Virus record (IMG/VR): IMGVR_UViG_3300021963_000437
Span: 1 to 31,924 of that record
Source of the DNA: a virus
Length of the DNA stretch: 31,924 nucleotides
Strand: one strand, 5' to 3'
Numbering within the stretch: the stretch's first letter is position 1; the number at the start of each line of letters is the position of its first letter. The translations under genes and the position numbers were made by a program. The notes beneath the pieces were generated by a model. The model ran no database searches, had not been told where the DNA came from, and was given only the letters and a program-made list of their open reading frames with translations. This document shows, piece by piece, positions 1 to 24,739 of the stretch.

Positions 1-453
1 TGATGTTTCTTGTTTAGGATTAGGATAACCCACTGCAACGTGACCGCCTGCACATCTCAAATTAGTATTATTAGATGGCGGTTGGTTAACACGTCGATCA
101 TACACATTGAAATCTGGTTCACAACCAAATGTACGTGCTTGTTTTGATTTCAAATAAATTGGATTAATCATAGCACTTACAGATTTATTCAATGTATAAC
201 CATTAGCTTCTGCTAATACAGTTAAATAATCTTGAACATATTGATGATGTTCAACCCATTCTTCTGATGTAGCACATGGTGGAATATTATACTCAAACAT
301 TATGCCATCCTCTTGAATCATGTGACCATTATCAGTGATTGGCATTGGATTTTGTTTATTACCGCCTGTTAAACCTTCAGCAGATACAATTTCAATTTCA
401 TCCTGAATAAAAATCTCAGGATCTGAACCTAGTGTTATGTTATGTTTATTCAT
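1..453 (-). CDS. Phage amidoligase (COOH-NH2 ligase type 2), C-terminus outside window
   Basis: My own translation of the minus strand gives 151 codons from an ATG at 453 without a stop, so the gene continues past the left edge. It opens with GSDPEIFI near residues 9-16, followed by VSAEGLTGG and then GIMFEYNIPPC near residue 60. This pattern is typical of the phage COOH-NH2 ligase type 2 family of phiEco32-like phages, a glutamine-synthetase-fold amidoligase that joins a carboxylate to an amine using ATP. The next gene ends 4 nt before this ATG, so it is the last visible member of a five-gene cassette with an ATP-grasp ligase, two amidotransferase-type hydrolases and a GGCT-like protein. The family call rests on motif recall. 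The substrate is unknown. Confidence 0.75.
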   Translation of the reverse strand, partial: MNKHNITLGSDPEIFIQDEIEIVSAEGLTGGNKQNPMPITDNGHMIQEDGIMFEYNIPPCATSEEWVEHHQYVQDYLTVLAEANGYTLNKSVSAMINPIYLKSKQARTFGCEPDFNVYDRRVNQPPSNNTNLRCAGGHVAVGYPNPKQETS

Positions 454-457
454 TTTG

Positions 458-1132
458 TTATAAATTTAGTGTATTTTTAATTAATTTTAAACACAATTGT
501 TTTGTTTCTTCTGGACAATTTGCAAATTCTGGATGACCTTGAATGCATAAAGAATTACTATTATTATAGTATACAATCTCGCATTCTAAGAAGTTAGTTG
601 GTAATTCTTTTTCCTCATCATTACCATTTAGATATGTATCACTTAAATAATATTTAGATGCTGCATGAATTGTATATGCTTGTGGATCTAAATTGTAAGG
701 ATACATCATTTGATGATGTGTTGAGGTCATTTCATATACATTACCATTTCTAAGTAGTTCAATAAGATGTGAATTACCATGATTTGCAACATGTTGAATC
801 AATGAACCACCTGAAGCTACTGTTAAGAATTGTGCACCTCTACAAATTCCTAATTTAGGAATTTTACTACTCAATCTGTGAAACATATAATCAAATTCAA
901 ATTCATCACGTTTACGATTAGTAAATGTACGTGAACCTATTTTCTCACCATAATGTGCAGGTGATACATCTTCACCTCCTGCAAATAATATTAAATCAAT
1001 TTGATCATCGATATTCATATTTTTAGCACAAATTGGATTAACATCATATGCTAAATTTAAAAAATCTATATAATTACGAGGTGTATCATTTGAATTAATT
1101 AATACGTTTAGTTTCTTTTTAGTTTCTTTCAT
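458..1132 (-). CDS. Class I glutamine amidotransferase / gamma-glutamyl hydrolase, PuuD-like (copy 1)
   Basis: This is a 224-aa protein of the peptidase C26 / class I amidotransferase fold. The glycine-rich FAGGEDVSPAHYGE segment (residues 50-63) precedes the nucleophile elbow GICRGAQ, with Cys97. His200 and Glu202 in QGHPEF complete the triad, so it should be active. PuuD-type enzymes cut gamma-glutamyl-amine bonds, and its short single-domain form fits a free-standing hydrolase better than an amidotransferase subunit. The next gene upstream encodes a diverged relative with the same triad. The spacing is 1 nt, so the two are probably co-translated. In this cassette it could trim or release gamma-glutamyl products of the two ligases. 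The precise substrate is not visible. Confidence 0.8.
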   Translation of the reverse strand: MKETKKKLNVLINSNDTPRNYIDFLNLAYDVNPICAKNMNIDDQIDLILFAGGEDVSPAHYGEKIGSRTFTNRKRDEFEFDYMFHRLSSKIPKLGICRGAQFLTVASGGSLIQHVANHGNSHLIELLRNGNVYEMTSTHHQMMYPYNLDPQAYTIHAASKYYLSDTYLNGNDEEKELPTNFLECEIVYYNNSNSLCIQGHPEFANCPEETKQLCLKLIKNTLNL

Positions 1133-1133
1133 G

Positions 1134-1853
1134 TTATTTTAATAAATCATTAATAATATTTTTTGCAACATCGCAATTAAATTCTTCAGGATGATATTGA
1201 AATCCCCATATTGGTAATGCAGTATGTCTAAATATTTCAACAACTGTATGTGCTACACTAGTAGATTTAACAATACCATTTTTATCAAATTCTCTCCATG
1301 TACTAAGGTTATTAGTATCTGAATAACATCCTTCATACACTTGTGAATAAGCAATAACTTCTAAATCATCACCTAGTTTCTTAACTGATTGATGATGCAT
1401 TGAATTTACAAAATGAAATCCATCATTATCAATAAATTGGATCTCTTGATCTGTAGAACTTCTACTACCTCCTTGTTGATGACCAACAATATGTTGATTC
1501 AATGTACCACCAAACCAAGTATTCAATCGTTGCATACCTCTGCAGATACCTACAATTGGTTTACCTGCACGAATAAACTTTGGTAATAACATATCATCTA
1601 GATATTCATAATGTTGATTACCTCTACCTGTCATAACTCCTGGTGCTTCACCATATGTTTGTACATACACATCTGCACCGCCTGGTAATACAAGCATATC
1701 AACTTCATTTTCAATGTTATCTAAATTATCTAATGTTGAAATTAATCTAACATGACCAAACTGACTCAAGAATTGCATATATGGAAATGTCTGACCTACT
1801 TTATTGTCAGAACAATCTGCATACACACCTATAATTTTATTTTGTTTTTTCAT
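1134..1853 (-). CDS. Class I glutamine amidotransferase / gamma-glutamyl hydrolase, PuuD-like (copy 2)
   Basis: This 239-aa protein has LVLPGGADVYVQTYGE near residues 54-69, the nucleophile elbow GICRGMQ with Cys104, a FVNSMHHQS segment near 148-156, and QYHPEEF with His221 and Glu223. The complete triad points to a working class I hydrolase of the gamma-glutamyl-gamma-aminobutyrate hydrolase (PuuD) type. It clearly differs from the neighbouring copy outside the motifs, so this is an old duplication or two separate gains rather than a recent tandem copy. Its start overlaps the end of the ATP-grasp gene by 17 nt, which suggests translational coupling of ligase and hydrolase. Confidence 0.8.
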   Translation of the reverse strand: MKKQNKIIGVYADCSDNKVGQTFPYMQFLSQFGHVRLISTLDNLDNIENEVDMLVLPGGADVYVQTYGEAPGVMTGRGNQHYEYLDDMLLPKFIRAGKPIVGICRGMQRLNTWFGGTLNQHIVGHQQGGSRSSTDQEIQFIDNDGFHFVNSMHHQSVKKLGDDLEVIAYSQVYEGCYSDTNNLSTWREFDKNGIVKSTSVAHTVVEIFRHTALPIWGFQYHPEEFNCDVAKNIINDLLK

Positions 1854-2742
1854 TGTATTTTTTTGTTAATAATTTTGGCAATTCTATTTTATATTTTTCT
1901 AGTGTCATTTCACCAAAAGATGGTGCTGAATTGATTTCTACAACAATAAAGTTTGGATCATTTCTAAATTCTCCATCTTTATCTGTGTTATTCTGAACTC
2001 TTAAATCACATGCACCGAAGTCAAGTTTACAACTTTTCAATGCTCTCACACAATTATCAACAATAGTTTGCCAATTGTTAGGTTTATCAAATAGTTCATT
2101 TTCTTCTAAAATCCATATGCAGTTATCATCATGTCTTTGCCATGAATTTGGATGATCTTTAAACTCTTGTTTAAGCATCTTTCTGCATGAATAAAAGCAA
2201 CCATTTTCTGTAACATGTAATCTATATTCCTTGTTATAGTTATAATACTTCTCAAAGATATAGTTGGTTAGCTTTTTATTAATTAACCAAGATTGTAACT
2301 CAATCTGTGATTTAATCAATGTATTACCTGTACCTCTGCTACCATAGATATGCTTTGCAACTAATGGATATTCCATGTCTGATGGTTTGATATCAAAATC
2401 TTCACTTTCAGTAGTATTACTTCTATCTTGAAAGTGATTTCCATCAAAACAATACCATACTGCTGTTTGAACACCTTCTTGGCTAAAACATTCCTTCATT
2501 TGAAACTTATTAGAGCTGTTTCTAATAGCTTCTCGTGAATTCAATTCTATTCTAGTACCCTTTAATGTAGCAGGATCTGTAAGCTCTGTTAGAGAGCCTA
2601 ATCTAATCACTGATCTAAATGGTAATTTAACCAATTGATATCTTAATTGAGAATGACTAGGATGTCTACTTCTAATCATAGGTCTAAAATTACCTTTTAG
2701 TTTTTTCTCAAGGACTGCTTTTTTAAATTTTAATGTTATCAT
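1837..2742 (-). CDS. ATP-grasp ligase
   Basis: This 301-aa protein reads as an ATP-grasp carboxylate-amine ligase. The nucleotide-binding loop is PLVAKHIYGSRGTGNTL around residues 146-162, the EYRLHV strand follows near 192, and the C-terminal metal-binding segment has DFGACDLRV and then VVEINSAPSFG (acidic Glu plus Asn near 270-280). Such enzymes activate a carboxylate as an acyl-phosphate and form an amide with an amine, for example adding glutamate to a peptide end. A basic N-terminus with a RSRHPSHSQLR stretch precedes the core. It lies between a GGCT-like gene and a PuuD-like hydrolase, which supports peptide or gamma-glutamyl chemistry. The substrate cannot be read from the sequence. 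Confidence 0.8.
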   Translation of the reverse strand: MITLKFKKAVLEKKLKGNFRPMIRSRHPSHSQLRYQLVKLPFRSVIRLGSLTELTDPATLKGTRIELNSREAIRNSSNKFQMKECFSQEGVQTAVWYCFDGNHFQDRSNTTESEDFDIKPSDMEYPLVAKHIYGSRGTGNTLIKSQIELQSWLINKKLTNYIFEKYYNYNKEYRLHVTENGCFYSCRKMLKQEFKDHPNSWQRHDDNCIWILEENELFDKPNNWQTIVDNCVRALKSCKLDFGACDLRVQNNTDKDGEFRNDPNFIVVEINSAPSFGEMTLEKYKIELPKLLTKKYNEKTK

Positions 2743-2743
2743 A

Positions 2744-3199
2744 TTATTCCATTCCGTATCTAGCTGTTAATAATTGATCGTCATTAAATGACATTTTGTG
2801 TTTTTTCCAATCACCTGATTCAATTTTATGAGCTGTGTTTGTTCCACAATTGAAAATATATGTATAACATTCTCCATATGGACTATCAATTACAACTCTA
2901 TTATAATAGTTATCAGTACAGTCTTCCTCATAGCCTTCCAATCTGTCAAGGCTATGTAATACTTCTTTTTCTACAGCATATACTTCCATTTTTACAGAAG
3001 TAGATCCGTTTTCTTTCAATGCTGGATAAGAACCTAATGAAAATAAATCATATACAGGTTCTGTATCAAATTCTCCTACAAATTTAGAATTTCTTAAAAA
3101 ATGATGATTGTGTAAATCTTGTCGTAAAGATCCATACACAGCAACCAACTCGTGATCTTCAATCTTTTTTGTTTTTGGATTAAAATAAGATGTTTTCAT
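2744..3199 (-). CDS. Gamma-glutamylcyclotransferase-like (GGCT/AIG2) protein
   Basis: This 151-aa protein has the family's signature loop, VAVYGSLR at residues 19-26, and the likely catalytic acid Glu88 in LDRLEGYEED. The length is usual for the single-domain GGCT/AIG2 fold. These enzymes release 5-oxoproline from gamma-glutamyl amines or peptides. It is the first gene of the cassette in reading direction, 1 nt after the primase stop and 1 nt before the ATP-grasp ATG, so the whole group appears to be one transcript with the replication genes. Together with two PuuD-like hydrolases it gives the phage three potential gamma-glutamyl-cleaving activities beside two ligases. Confidence 0.8.
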   Translation of the reverse strand: MKTSYFNPKTKKIEDHELVAVYGSLRQDLHNHHFLRNSKFVGEFDTEPVYDLFSLGSYPALKENGSTSVKMEVYAVEKEVLHSLDRLEGYEEDCTDNYYNRVVIDSPYGECYTYIFNCGTNTAHKIESGDWKKHKMSFNDDQLLTARYGME

Positions 3200-3200
3200 T

Positions 3201-4223
3201 TTAAAATGGTAATTTTATTAGGTTTAATAAATATTCTTTTGCTATTATAGCACCGTGATTTTTAACTAAATCACTAAAATCTTTTGATTGATAACCTTCA
3301 TCTATTTCTATCTGAATTAAATCATAATCATCTGCTAGTTTAATACCAAACTGTCTGCCCCAATTCTGTTCTTTATCATAATCATTGTCATACAACAAAA
3401 ATAATGTATCAAATCTACGACGTAATTGATCAATAATATGATCTTTTGGTCTTGCAGCTTCTGTTTGTAAACTAATTGCTGGTATTCCACATACATCATG
3501 GATAGCCATAACATCTTTTAATGATTTAGTAATAATTAATGACTCTCCTGTAACAGGAAGTTGTTCCCAACCTTGCCACACAGATTCATTATGATTATTT
3601 AACCATTTATAACTAGGATTAGCTGGTTGATAAATCTTGTAAGTTTCCTTATTATCTTTAAATTCCTTAAAGCAATATGCATTTTTATCTGCAGGAATGA
3701 TTTTATCACCTATAAATACATAACTAATTGGCTCTACATTGTATTTAATCAATGTATTCTTAGTAATAGCATATTGATTCCAAAACGCAAGATCTTGAAT
3801 TGTCCAATCTCTAGATTTTTTTCTTAAACTGTGTGTGTTTAAATCAGAAATAATATCATCTCTTGTCTTTGTATAAGGTGTAGTGTTTACATTTGTTCTA
3901 AATGTATTTTTGATATAAAATTCATCCTGTAAATTAGCATCTAATGCAATTTTACTTAATGCTTCAAAATATGTCAATCCAAACTTCATTTGTACAAATT
4001 TTATACAATCGCCTGAACCTAACACAAAATCTTTAAAGCATAGCTCATGATTTTCACCAATAAAGAAACCAAATGAAGGTTTTTCATCAGTTCTTAACGG
4101 AGATTTCATATTACCTTTAGTAGTAATATCTTCATCCATGTACATTCTATATATTTCCAAATCTGTTAGATATTGAAACAATAGATCTTTTGTAACTGTT
4201 TTTTTATTTAAATTAATTTGCAT
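3201..4223 (-). CDS. DnaG-like primase
   Basis: This 340-aa protein resembles a DnaG-type primase. Residues 35-95 follow the layout of the N-terminal template-binding domain (SPLRTDEKPSFGF, then FKDF, GSGDCIKFV and FGLTYFEAL), but the zinc-binding Cys and His of the usual CPFH motif are replaced by Ser41 and Arg44. A TOPRIM-like core follows: ESLIITKSLKDVMAIHD at 227-243, GIPAISLQ near 246, and FLLYDNDYD at 275-283 with the acidic DND. It should make RNA primers for the phage fork beside the DnaB-like helicase and family B polymerase. A tRNA gene lies just upstream. The usual TOPRIM Glu position reads as Lys-Ser-Leu-Lys-Asp, so this is a diverged form. Confidence 0.75.
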   Translation of the reverse strand: MQINLNKKTVTKDLLFQYLTDLEIYRMYMDEDITTKGNMKSPLRTDEKPSFGFFIGENHELCFKDFVLGSGDCIKFVQMKFGLTYFEALSKIALDANLQDEFYIKNTFRTNVNTTPYTKTRDDIISDLNTHSLRKKSRDWTIQDLAFWNQYAITKNTLIKYNVEPISYVFIGDKIIPADKNAYCFKEFKDNKETYKIYQPANPSYKWLNNHNESVWQGWEQLPVTGESLIITKSLKDVMAIHDVCGIPAISLQTEAARPKDHIIDQLRRRFDTLFLLYDNDYDKEQNWGRQFGIKLADDYDLIQIEIDEGYQSKDFSDLVKNHGAIIAKEYLLNLIKLPF

Positions 4224-4255
4224 GTTTCATAATATTTATTTTAGTTATTAATTGT

Positions 4256-4327
4256 TACTAGTGGGGGAATCGAACCCCCATCTAAGCAGCTGATTGCTAC
4301 TCATGTTACCATTTACACCAACTAGTA
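4256..4327 (-). tRNA. tRNA with unusual anticodon loop (A at position 33)
   Basis: A full 72-nt cloverleaf folds on the minus strand. It has a perfect 7-bp acceptor (TACTAGT with ACTAGTA), a D-arm GTGT/ACAT with loop AAATGGTA, an anticodon stem AGTAG/CTGCT, a 5-nt variable loop, and a T-arm of five G-C pairs around TTCGATT. No CCA end is encoded. The anticodon loop reads CAATCAG, which places A rather than the nearly invariant U at position 33 and would give anticodon ATC (Asp) if read normally. The C32-G38 pair may shrink the loop to five bases. The amino-acid identity is therefore uncertain. It sits between the primase and the SSB-like gene. Confidence 0.85.
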
Positions 4328-10372: not shown

Positions 10373-11230
10373 TTAAAATATATATCTTATCGTATTCCAA
10401 GGTATAATATCATTATGTAATGTTTTAAAATCATTAATGAAATGTACCTTATCAAGATGATGATATCTAATATTATCTCCACCGTATTGAGATATCTTAG
10501 TTTCTTGTATTTCAGGAAACCATAACAACTCCTCACCTGGTAAATTATTTATTATATTGTAATCATGCTTTGCTTTATTGTGTGTTAAGAATATAACCTC
10601 AGCTAGTACTTCATCTTTGTATTTTACAATAGAATCAACTAATTCAAACAACGCTGTGTATTCTTCTAACCAACCATCTACTACAATAACAGGACTAAAA
10701 TTTATATGCACATCATAACCTGCCTCCACAAAATCATTTATAGCATATATTCTATCTATAATTGATGATGTATTAGGCTCAAGTTTATCAGCATATACTT
10801 GTGGCATTAATGAAAATCTAATTCTAATCTTTTTGTTTGGATTATACTCCAACAGTTTCTTGTTCACATACTTTGTAGCAAATGAACCCATCGCTAAATC
10901 ATGGTGTTTAAAGAAATCAAATATCTTTTTCCAATCATAATATTTAGCATGCAATGCCAAATCTTCATTACAACCTAAATCATATGTGATATACTTGTAA
11001 TGTGTTTGATTAGGCTTATCTGTTGTATCAAAATATACATGAGAGTTTATTTCTGTTAAAATATCATTTATATTTGTTGCAACATCTAACCCTGATGACT
11101 TATGACGCTTCATATAACAATATGTACAGTTATATAAACAACCATAACCAAAGCTAGGAGCAATAAAATCTGTACTCCTACCTGATGGTCTAATCATCAT
11201 TGATTTCCTAACTAACTGTTTTACAATCAT
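10373..11230 (-). CDS. Radical SAM protein, spore photoproduct lyase-like
   Basis: This 285-aa protein has the radical SAM cluster motif CLYNCTYC (Cys31, Cys35, Cys38) in SFGYGCLYNCTYCYMKR. The rest follows the spore photoproduct lyase pattern: a DLGCNEDLALHA segment with Cys87, then IRFSLMPQ near 137-144, NTSSIIDRIYAINDFVEAGY near 153-172 and FSPVIVVDGWLEEY near 178-191. In SplB a cysteine about 43 residues after the cluster donates a hydrogen atom; Cys87 lies 49 residues after, with a small insertion, and may be its counterpart. It could repair thymine photoproducts or modify nucleic acid. SplB is about 340 aa, so this copy is shorter. It adjoins the DNA polymerase gene. Confidence 0.75.
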   Translation of the reverse strand: MIVKQLVRKSMMIRPSGRSTDFIAPSFGYGCLYNCTYCYMKRHKSSGLDVATNINDILTEINSHVYFDTTDKPNQTHYKYITYDLGCNEDLALHAKYYDWKKIFDFFKHHDLAMGSFATKYVNKKLLEYNPNKKIRIRFSLMPQVYADKLEPNTSSIIDRIYAINDFVEAGYDVHINFSPVIVVDGWLEEYTALFELVDSIVKYKDEVLAEVIFLTHNKAKHDYNIINNLPGEELLWFPEIQETKISQYGGDNIRYHHLDKVHFINDFKTLHNDIIPWNTIRYIF

Positions 11231-22702: not shown

Positions 22703-23268
22703 TGAAATTATTTGAAATGAGAGATTTTAACCTCCAAGTTACAGAAGAAACTTGGGGGTTATTGCCTTTTAAGGCTATCTTAAAAAGAGACAAATCTAGA
22801 ACAAAAGATACTGCTTTTAAAGAAATGCTTTTTATATATTATTACTCTGACATTAGGTCTGATTATATTTATATAGTTAATAACAAAGATAGAGAAAGGG
22901 AAATAAAAAAAGACATTGGACTACCTACGGATTGGACGATGGATAAAGTAATACAAGATGCAATTGCATATTATGAACATATGTCAATTAGTCCGATTGC
23001 TAAATTATATAAAAGCTCACTAAAAGCAGCAGATGATATTTCTAGATATTTGGAGATGACAGATGTATTATTATCTGAAAGAACTGCTAATGGTAGCACA
23101 GTTACTACATTAGCTACAATCACAGGTTCACTTAAATCAGTGCCTATTATTATGCGTGATTTAAAAGCTGCTTACAAAGAAGTAGTTAAAGAACAGATTG
23201 AATTAGAAGGAAGAGCTAAAGGAAGTAGAACATTAAACCCATTTGAAGATGGGTTATCATTTGAATAA
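22702..23268 (+). CDS. Hypothetical protein upstream of GroEL, probably virion- or assembly-related
   Basis: This 188-aa protein starts MKLFEMRDFNLQVTEETWGL and includes FKAILKRDKSRTKDTAFKEM, IYYYSDIRSDYIYIVNNKDR and a helical C-terminal half (SISPIAKLYKSSLKAADDIS, then LKAAYKEVVKEQIELEGRAK). I recall similar proteins next to head genes in Bacteroidota phages but have no firm function. Position between the two chaperonin genes and before terminase suggests head assembly. Confidence 0.55.
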   Translation: MKLFEMRDFNLQVTEETWGLLPFKAILKRDKSRTKDTAFKEMLFIYYYSDIRSDYIYIVNNKDREREIKKDIGLPTDWTMDKVIQDAIAYYEHMSISPIAKLYKSSLKAADDISRYLEMTDVLLSERTANGSTVTTLATITGSLKSVPIIMRDLKAAYKEVVKEQIELEGRAKGSRTLNPFEDGLSFE

Positions 23269-23269
23269 T

Positions 23270-24739
23270 ATGAAAGAAATATACTTTAGAGAAGAAGCAA
23301 GAGAGAAGTTATTTAGTGGAATAAATAAGTTACATGATGCAGTAGCATCTACTATGGGACCAAGTGGTAAGACAGTAATTATTAGTGATATATACGGTCA
23401 ACCACAAGTAACTAAAGATGGCGTATCTGTAGCTAAAAGCATTCAATTAAAAGATCCTGTAGAGAATATGGGAGCTACATTAATCAAACAAGTTGCTGAA
23501 AAGACAGCATTTGAAGCTGGTGACGGAACTACTACAGCAACTGTATTAGCAACTGCATTTATTAACAACTTAAAGAAGTTTAAATCTGTAGAAATTAATA
23601 AAGCATTTGATGAAATTATACCTGAGATACTTAAACAATTAAAAACAAACTCAAGAGAACTCAAACGTGAGGATATTAAATATGTTGCTAATATATCTGC
23701 TAATAATGATATACAAATTGGGAATACTATTCAGCAGGCTTTCAATCATTCTGATATAGTAAAGGTTGAAGAATCAAATTCTAATAATGATATACTAGAA
23801 TTAGTTGATGGTATGCAACTCAATGTATCATACTTTTCTAAAGCTTTTGTTACAGATGACCGCAAGGCTGAATGTGAATTACTTGAACCATATGTATTAT
23901 TAGTTGAAAATAAGTTAGATTCATTGAAGTCTTTTGAAACTGTACTTAATAGTATTGCTGCTAATGGTCAGTCATTGTTAATTATTACAGATCATGTATC
24001 AGAGCAAATATTAAAGCTACTTGAAACAAATGCTTTGTCAAAAAATCTTAATTTATGTGCAATTAAAACTCCTGGGTTTGGTCAGCATAGAAAAGATCTC
24101 ATTAGGGACCTCTCAGACTTTACAGGAGCTGCTATTATAAGTGATCTTAGTAAGACACATGGATTCAATCAGTTTGGTAGATTAAAGTCTTGTAAGATCT
24201 CTAAAACTAATTCAATATTAGTAAAGCACGATGAGATAGATATTAAAGAATTAGTAGATGCATTAGGTGACTTATCTAAATCAAAAGACTTATCAACAAC
24301 TGATAAAGATTTAATATTACAAAGGTATCAAAACCTATCAGGTAAGGTATCCATCATTAAAGTTGGCGGAGGTTCTGAAGTAGAGATGAAAGAACGTAAA
24401 GATAGATATGATGATGCTGTATTAGCTGCTGCATGTGCATTAGAAGAAGGTATTGTTAAAGGTGGAGGTATTGCATTGTATGATGCTGTACAAAAGGTTC
24501 CAAACAAGCATTTATTAACTACTGAGAGTGCAGACTTTGCAGTTGTTAAAAGTTTACTTGCTCCATATGAAACAATCTGTGATAATGGAACATGTATACC
24601 TGTTTTAAATGATGTGTTTGATCAAAATATCATTGATCCTCTTAAAGTAACTAGATGTGCTTTAGAGAATGCGGTATCTGTTGCTAAGACAATACTATCA
24701 ACCAATACGGTTGTGTTAAATGAAAGACAATGGAATTAA
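23270..24739 (+). CDS. groL: GroEL-like chaperonin
   Basis: I place the start at the ATG at 23270 (489 aa), 1 nt after the upstream stop. The sequence follows GroEL closely at the active sites: HDAVASTMGPSGKTVIISD (22-40), TKDGVSVAKSIQLKDPVENM (48-67) with the ATP-site Asp50, and GDGTTTATVLA (84-94) with Asp85. The late segment KVGGGSEVEMKERKDRYDDA (about 366-385) holds the equivalent of E. coli Asp398. The apical region (about 165-350) is more diverged and shorter, the protein is about 50 residues shorter than bacterial GroEL, and the Gly-Gly-Met tail is absent. It should form the folding ring for virion proteins together with the GroES-like lid. It overlaps terminase by 10 nt. Confidence 0.92.
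   Translation: MKEIYFREEAREKLFSGINKLHDAVASTMGPSGKTVIISDIYGQPQVTKDGVSVAKSIQLKDPVENMGATLIKQVAEKTAFEAGDGTTTATVLATAFINNLKKFKSVEINKAFDEIIPEILKQLKTNSRELKREDIKYVANISANNDIQIGNTIQQAFNHSDIVKVEESNSNNDILELVDGMQLNVSYFSKAFVTDDRKAECELLEPYVLLVENKLDSLKSFETVLNSIAANGQSLLIITDHVSEQILKLLETNALSKNLNLCAIKTPGFGQHRKDLIRDLSDFTGAAIISDLSKTHGFNQFGRLKSCKISKTNSILVKHDEIDIKELVDALGDLSKSKDLSTTDKDLILQRYQNLSGKVSIIKVGGGSEVEMKERKDRYDDAVLAAACALEEGIVKGGGIALYDAVQKVPNKHLLTTESADFAVVKSLLAPYETICDNGTCIPVLNDVFDQNIIDPLKVTRCALENAVSVAKTILSTNTVVLNERQWN

Follow-up and report, generated by a model that had tools for sequence, protein, structure and literature searches.

The window analysed here is an entire virus record, IMGVR_UViG_3300021963_000437 (31,924 bases), one end of which falls within a gene for a COOH-NH2 ligase. 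Judging from its sequence, the genome is crAss-like: its terminase aligns over the full length with those of Steigviridae phages such as cr126_1 at about 41% identity, and in profile searches its portal and major head proteins match phage head families. The subject of this study is a cassette of five adjacent genes at that end, all on the minus strand and downstream of the primase. In the order of transcription, the primase (4223-3201) is followed by a gamma-glutamyl(amine) cyclotransferase of the GGACT family (GGCT; 3199-2744), an ATP-grasp carboxylate-amine ligase of the RimK/LysX/Ddl-like kind (2742-1837), two paralogous Peptidase_C26 or class I glutaminase-like proteins called C26b (1853-1134) and C26a (1132-458), and the edge-cut COOH-NH2 ligase type 2 (453-1), an amidoligase of the glutamine synthetase (GS) fold of which the N-terminal 151 residues are present. 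The genes are tightly packed: a single nucleotide separates the GGCT gene from the primase (3199/3201), the ATP-grasp gene from the GGCT gene (2742/2744) and C26a from C26b (1132/1134), four nucleotides separate the ligase from C26a (453/458), and the ATP-grasp and C26b genes overlap by 17 nucleotides (1837-1853). A first-pass annotation had placed the five open reading frames (ORFs), their gaps and their overlap at exactly these positions. Its naming of the five genes was borne out by profile matches, to phrog_3815 for the ligase (E 2e-37), PF07722 for C26a (E 1.7e-20, with PF00117 at E 5e-8) and for C26b (E 3.7e-25), phrog_2599, an S6-glutaminyl-transferase-like family, for the ATP-grasp enzyme (E 9e-26), and PF06094 (E 2.4e-20) together with phrog_2520 for the GGCT.

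The ligase fragment matches the COOH.NH2 ligase family phrog_3815 and no Pfam family. A complete homologue from a related locus, L016, is 68% identical to it over the 151 residues and scores 33.2 bits against PF14395 (cut-off 25). The AlphaFold2 model of the L016 protein (predicted local distance difference test, pLDDT, 92) has a glutamine-synthetase-type fold, so that the amidoligase fold which had been read into the truncated gene is found in its complete counterpart. This model aligns with glutamine synthetase 4bax (Z 14.4, 183 residues, root-mean-square deviation (rmsd) 3.0), with YbdK 1r8g (Z 14.4, 218 residues, rmsd 3.4) and with the GshF-type bifunctional ligase 3ln7 (Z 14.1), and it also matches the pupylation enzymes Dop (Z 13.9) and PafA. 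A PDB sequence search with the ligase profile returned no match; the relation to GS emerged only from the fold search. The half of the ligase present in the window keeps the family-invariant residues D11, E13, E55 and H139 (L016 numbering), and the positions of Glu194 and Arg196, conserved in at least 90% of the ligase relatives, fall past the record end.

C26a and C26b score 74 and 89 bits, respectively, against Peptidase_C26 (cut-off 20.5). The PDB entries nearest to C26a are 7d4r, a 'probable glutamine amidotransferase', and 3fij, and those nearest to C26b are 3fij (Lin1909) and then the glutaminase of GMP synthase. Their catalytic triads are Cys97/His200/Glu202 in C26a and Cys104/His221/Glu223 in C26b, and the Cys, His and Glu are conserved in 107, 107 and 109 of 110 family rows, both window proteins included. 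Against the NCBIfam equivalogs for PuuD and gamma-glutamyl-CDP-amidate hydrolase they reach 21-41 bits, below the cut-offs of 250-266, and on profile scores we assign them to the C26 superfamily and not to either of these equivalogs. The ATP-grasp profile matches cyanophycin synthase and RimK, and the model of the window protein (pLDDT 92) resembles LysX (Z 20.3, 235 residues, rmsd 3.0), RimK (Z 19.6) and the D-Ala-D-Ala ligases (Z 17-18). Residues K79, E172, R174, K188, D246 and E269 are kept in all of 102 rows, and the Mg-binding D246, E269 and N271 are conserved; the scores against curated RimK families stay below their cut-offs, with 34.5 bits for TIGR00768 (143.4) and 15.3 bits for PF08443 (21). 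The GGCT scores 73.7 bits against PF06094 (cut-off 22.8), has YtfP (1xhs, E 3e-15) as its nearest PDB entry, and carries the YGSL motif at Y22-G-S-L and the catalytic Glu88, which is found in 52 of 60 family rows. The family alignments thus confirm for the C26 triads, the ATP-grasp residues and Glu88 the earlier statement that the visible catalytic residues are present.

The conservation of the cassette was followed in 69 non-redundant loci whose flanks extend 5 kb or more on each side of the ligase; they were gathered via the ligase and partly via the ATP-grasp gene, and the figures describe ligase-bearing phages rather than crAss-like phages overall. The ATP-grasp ligase, a class II glutamine amidotransferase and a second GS-type amidoligase (Amidoligase_2) were each present in 68 of these loci, a C26 protein in 59 and a GGCT in 45. 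The co-occurrence in related phages that the first-pass annotation had predicted is therefore real, but its five-gene unit was too small, the full unit comprising about seven genes. Five of the genes of the podophage-type cassette are seen in the window, and the class II amidotransferase and the second amidoligase should lie just past its left edge, because nearly all complete relatives carry them. The crAss-like relatives arrange these genes as Sak4, primase, GGCT, ATP-grasp, C26b in some, C26a, COOH-NH2 ligase, class II amidotransferase and Amidoligase_2, often followed by uracil-DNA glycosylase (UDG).

Several rearranged gene orders occur among the relatives, and two pairs of neighbours persist through them. 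In 81 of 86 loci C26 adjoins the COOH-NH2 ligase, and in 94 of 95 the class II amidotransferase adjoins Amidoligase_2, whereas the other neighbours within the cassette vary (49/101 and 40/95); shared ancestry inflates these counts, the pairings nevertheless being retained across several different arrangements. Gene fusions that would prove the glutaminase/ligase pairs were not found in the relatives' loci. The class II amidotransferase profile matches PurF and GlmS, and the Cys, Arg, Asn-Gly and Asp of the glutaminase site are invariant in 17 rows; the Amidoligase_2 profile gave no meaningful match in the PDB. Among the matches listed, phi14:2 and cr108_1 were the only named Crassvirales with relatives of the ATP-grasp enzyme. 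When genome contigs were scanned for a single exact peptide pattern, 5 loci came up, each of them in a contig from a metagenome-assembled genome, and two of these loci hold the whole podophage-type run; an origin from host genes is unsupported by this narrow scan, which leaves room for cellular relatives.

Two further protein families accompany the cassette in relatives. A fast-evolving family of small proteins, about 120-165 residues long in most cases, is represented by L016:5149-5565 and some 30 homologous ORFs in the module loci; it recurs between the ATP-grasp gene and C26b in crAss-like relatives and is absent from the window, and its L016 copy has no Pfam match. In the podophage-like versions, a conserved protein of about 200 residues with no Pfam match (L041:7774-8373 and 40-odd homologues) sits between the COOH-NH2 ligase and Amidoligase_2 and may be a further functional member there.

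The class II amidotransferase itself shows an unusual variation at its N-terminus. It starts with Met-Cys in 63 of 108 copies, and in 23 relatives it begins with a hydrophobic leader of 23-33 residues that stops just before the catalytic Cys, as in MEVKIILILLIIHLLGIIIFKPKMNILS-CGIFGW. The leader frame is free of in-frame stops in all 23 and the other two frames contain stops in 23 and 22 of them, a contrast partly expected since ORF calling selects open frames. Class II amidotransferases require a free N-terminal Cys, and for this reason the leader should be removed. It is present in L003 and L016, the nearest complete relatives of the window, and was gained or lost repeatedly, with 17 changes on the ligase tree. 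In five relatives a small ORF resembling an HNH endonuclease lies between the upstream module gene and the leader, the two being inserted at the gene start directly ahead of the catalytic Cys codon and together occupying L043:6545-7256, L081:8517-9189, L106:9822-10581, L118:9792-10489 and L122:10907-11582; L003, L016, L056 and others have the leader without this ORF. The HNH-like identity was assigned by eye, and the one example tested has no Pfam match. In L043 the ORF and leader are flanked by copies of TGTGGAATAAT, a motif which L045, near-identical in the ligase, has once; by this comparison the copies are best read as a short target duplication. A group I or II intron at the insertion site was also considered, and two examples gave no Rfam match. 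The membrane leader was set aside as evidence for a lipid-linked target, being inconstant and accompanying what looks like a mobile element.

The pairing of glutaminases with ligases by gene order suggests glutamine-fed amidation more than gamma-glutamyl tagging, and narrows 'amide chemistry of some kind' to specific enzyme pairs. The first-pass annotation had proposed tagging with gamma-glutamyl groups; this is just one option, and the glutaminase/ligase neighbourhood fits a transfer of ammonia at least as well. On its further suggestion that the virion or DNA might be modified, none of the present results has any bearing. On the simplest reading, two glutaminase/ligase pairs, a RimK-like ligase and a clean-up by GGCT would together amount to glutamine-fed amidation. 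C26a would hydrolyse glutamine, or a gamma-glutamyl intermediate, on behalf of the COOH-NH2 ligase, and the class II amidotransferase would supply ammonia to the second amidoligase; each GS-type ligase would activate a carboxylate with ATP and turn it into an amide, the RimK/LysX/Ddl-like enzyme would attach an amino acid, and the GGCT would clear leftover or protecting gamma-glutamyl groups as 5-oxoproline. We infer the ammonia channelling and the order of these reactions; the target and purpose, which we infer only weakly, might be a host cell-wall peptide precursor altered in the course of infection, perhaps as a protection from rival phages or lysins. Taken as a whole, the glutamine-fed amidation and ligation of a peptide-like carboxylate, with a cell-wall precursor as its most plausible source, is a tentative proposal in which our confidence falls somewhat short of even.

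Several points weigh against this proposal. A substrate, product or phenotype has been found for no member of the cassette, and none of its genes is peptidoglycan-specific, the relatives of RimK and LysX acting on proteins or carriers and Ddl on D-Ala. The C26 pair resembles gamma-glutamyl hydrolases at least as much as ammonia-channelling glutaminases, and its best named relative is gamma-glutamyl-CDP-amidate hydrolase in NCBIfam (39-41 bits, cut-off 250). Finally, the cassette has replication genes (primase, Sak4 and UDG) as its neighbours, a position also compatible with a nucleotide target. A possible, if doubtful, variant keeps the enzymology and changes the target: the two pairs, class I with the COOH-NH2 ligase and class II with Amidoligase_2, would work in series with the RimK-like ligase on something other than peptidoglycan or any known modified molecule. 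They would have been passed as a unit between unrelated phage lineages and would constitute a previously undescribed kind of glutamine-fed pathway.

A GS fold, C26 hydrolases and a GGCT are also the enzyme set of gamma-glutamyl-amine metabolism, and in a Puu-like cycle the ligase would make gamma-glutamyl amines, for example of polyamines, for C26 and GGCT to cleave, the phage gaining a supply of polyamine, gamma-aminobutyric acid (GABA) or nitrogen, or a means of amine detoxification. The weak matches of C26a and C26b to the PuuD and gamma-glutamyl-CDP-amidate hydrolase models agree with this, as does the match of C26a to structure 7d4r, which we take to be a polyamine-pathway enzyme. We nevertheless regard such a cycle as unlikely: it leaves no role for the class II amidotransferase, the second amidoligase and the RimK-like enzyme, the most constant members (68/69), while the GGCT it relies on occurs in only 45/69 loci, and no further polyamine gene came to notice across the loci, though none was sought systematically. 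Quite improbable, in our estimate, is the tagging of a protein or of the virion, in which the RimK-like enzyme would extend a host protein (ribosomal protein S6 or RNA polymerase) or a phage protein with amino acids and the other enzymes would trim or amidate the tag. The nearest ATP-grasp structures, LysX, ArgX and RimK, belong to enzymes whose substrates are protein C-termini or a carrier protein, and the GS fold also includes the Pup ligase PafA and Dop. Yet the ATP-grasp relatives include Ddl (Z 17-18), so that the match does not fix the substrate, and a small LysW-like carrier protein ending in Glu was rejected, since no small conserved family with a C-terminal Glu occurs in 49 crAss-like loci.

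We give similarly little credence to a soluble small molecule, whether a diffusible antimetabolite of the glutamine or peptide kind or a metabolite directed against defence. Linked ligases often work serially in the synthesis of peptide-derived secondary metabolites (PMC4431377), which speaks for such a product; however, no gene for export or for a carrier was seen to recur in the loci, and no match to PADLOC defence families was obtained, a result on which an anti-phage defence role was rejected as well. That the cassette serves to make a modified nucleotide or DNA base, its amide enzymes decorating the base and the UDG and primase taking part in the same programme, appears very unlikely. The crAss-like cassettes do lie between the primase and, in many, UDG, but no UDG stands beside the cassette in the podophage examples examined (UFV-P2 and Clew-3), and no known base-hypermodification gene was recognised among the window genes scanned.

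The surroundings of the cassette in the window deserve a brief description. The crAss-like DNA primase (3201-4223, minus strand; phrog_12622, E 2e-63) is a conserved upstream neighbour, found in the same position relative to the cassette in crAss-like relatives, and we treat it as context and not as part of the pathway. Between it and the next replication gene, a tRNA-Asp is predicted on the minus strand (4254-4327) whose anticodon, ATC, is unusual (A at position 34); the prediction may be mistaken, or the tRNA may be modified. The product of a minus-strand gene adjoining that of the DNA polymerase (10373-11230) matches the spore photoproduct lyase family of radical-SAM proteins (PF20903, E 5e-26) and is possibly a phage DNA-repair enzyme. 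On the plus strand, a GroEL-like chaperonin gene (23243-24739; PF00118, E 5e-47, 418 of 490 profile positions covered) immediately precedes the terminase gene, and a putative gene for a 10-kDa chaperonin lies close to the equivalent position in cr126_1.

Comparison with published phages shows that the window cassette is a new crAss-like example of a cassette already described. Pseudoalteromonas podophages of the RIO-1/PSA-HP1-like type carry a seven-gene 'peptidoglycan modification cassette' of hypothetical function, credited to Hardies 2013 and Iyer (PMC5498523), in which two amidoligases, an ATP-grasp enzyme, a GGCT and a glutamine amidotransferase likewise form a single run surrounded by replication genes. 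What sets the crAss-like version apart is its fixed position after the primase, often before UDG, and the frequent presence of two C26 paralogues, and the window ATP-grasp enzyme is only about 23% identical to that of HP1. A putative module of the same kind is reported in LUZ24-like phages (PMC11945000), where UFV-P2 and Clew-3 share the PF14395 ligase, the PF12224 amidoligase and a class II amidotransferase of the GATase_6 family, UFV-P2 having in addition, as the window does, an ATP-grasp enzyme and an AIG2/GGCT (PMC3890496). Their gene order is different, the UFV-P2 gene table names no Peptidase_C26 gene (PMC3890496), and their class II enzyme and amidoligase are shorter (486 and 385 residues against 650 and 709 in L016). 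A change of the cell wall that excludes other phages has been put forward as the role of the cassette (PMC5498523, PMC11945000, PMC10580990), as a proposal only, and in the published accounts we found no experiment demonstrating peptidoglycan modification by any member.

The likeness to phiEco32-type COOH-NH2 ligase cassettes noticed in the first-pass annotation holds, but the occurrence in a crAss-like genome is not new, most of the cassette being already present in the crAss-like Cellulophaga phage phi14:2 (NC_021806; Crassvirales, Steigviridae). There, genes g037-g041, between the primase and UDG, are annotated gene by gene as GGCT, ATP-grasp (51% identity), COOH.NH2 ligase (36%), class II amidotransferase and amidoligase, a run without the C26 gene of which the window has two. 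The uncultured crAss-like cr108_1 (MT774385) has the ATP-grasp enzyme (41%), a class I amidotransferase and the COOH-NH2 ligase, and also a class II amidotransferase and an amidoligase-like protein ahead of UDG; it differs in that no GGCT was found in the run and in two extra paralogous genes of no assigned function. The cassette is common to phages that are unrelated to one another and infect Pseudomonas, Escherichia, Vibrio, Cellulophaga and a cyanobacterium. To this record the window adds a well-resolved crAss-like version, and cultured carriers exist in phi14:2 and the LUZ24-like phages.

Bacteria themselves offer a parallel to the proposed amidation of a cell-wall precursor. GatD is a class I glutaminase, and AsnB/LtsA is a class II enzyme of cell-wall amidation. 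GatD is reported to act with MurT in bacterial cell-wall amidation, and in the two systems the class I and the class II glutaminase are each coupled to a ligase step that depends on ATP. Unlike the phage ligases, MurT belongs to the Mur ligases and not to the GS fold; AsnB is a single polypeptide, and the likeness to the phage cassette is one of pairing rather than of demonstrated homology between the synthetase parts. By analogy, the use of both glutaminase classes in bacterial wall amidation supports the cell-wall amidation reading of the cassette.

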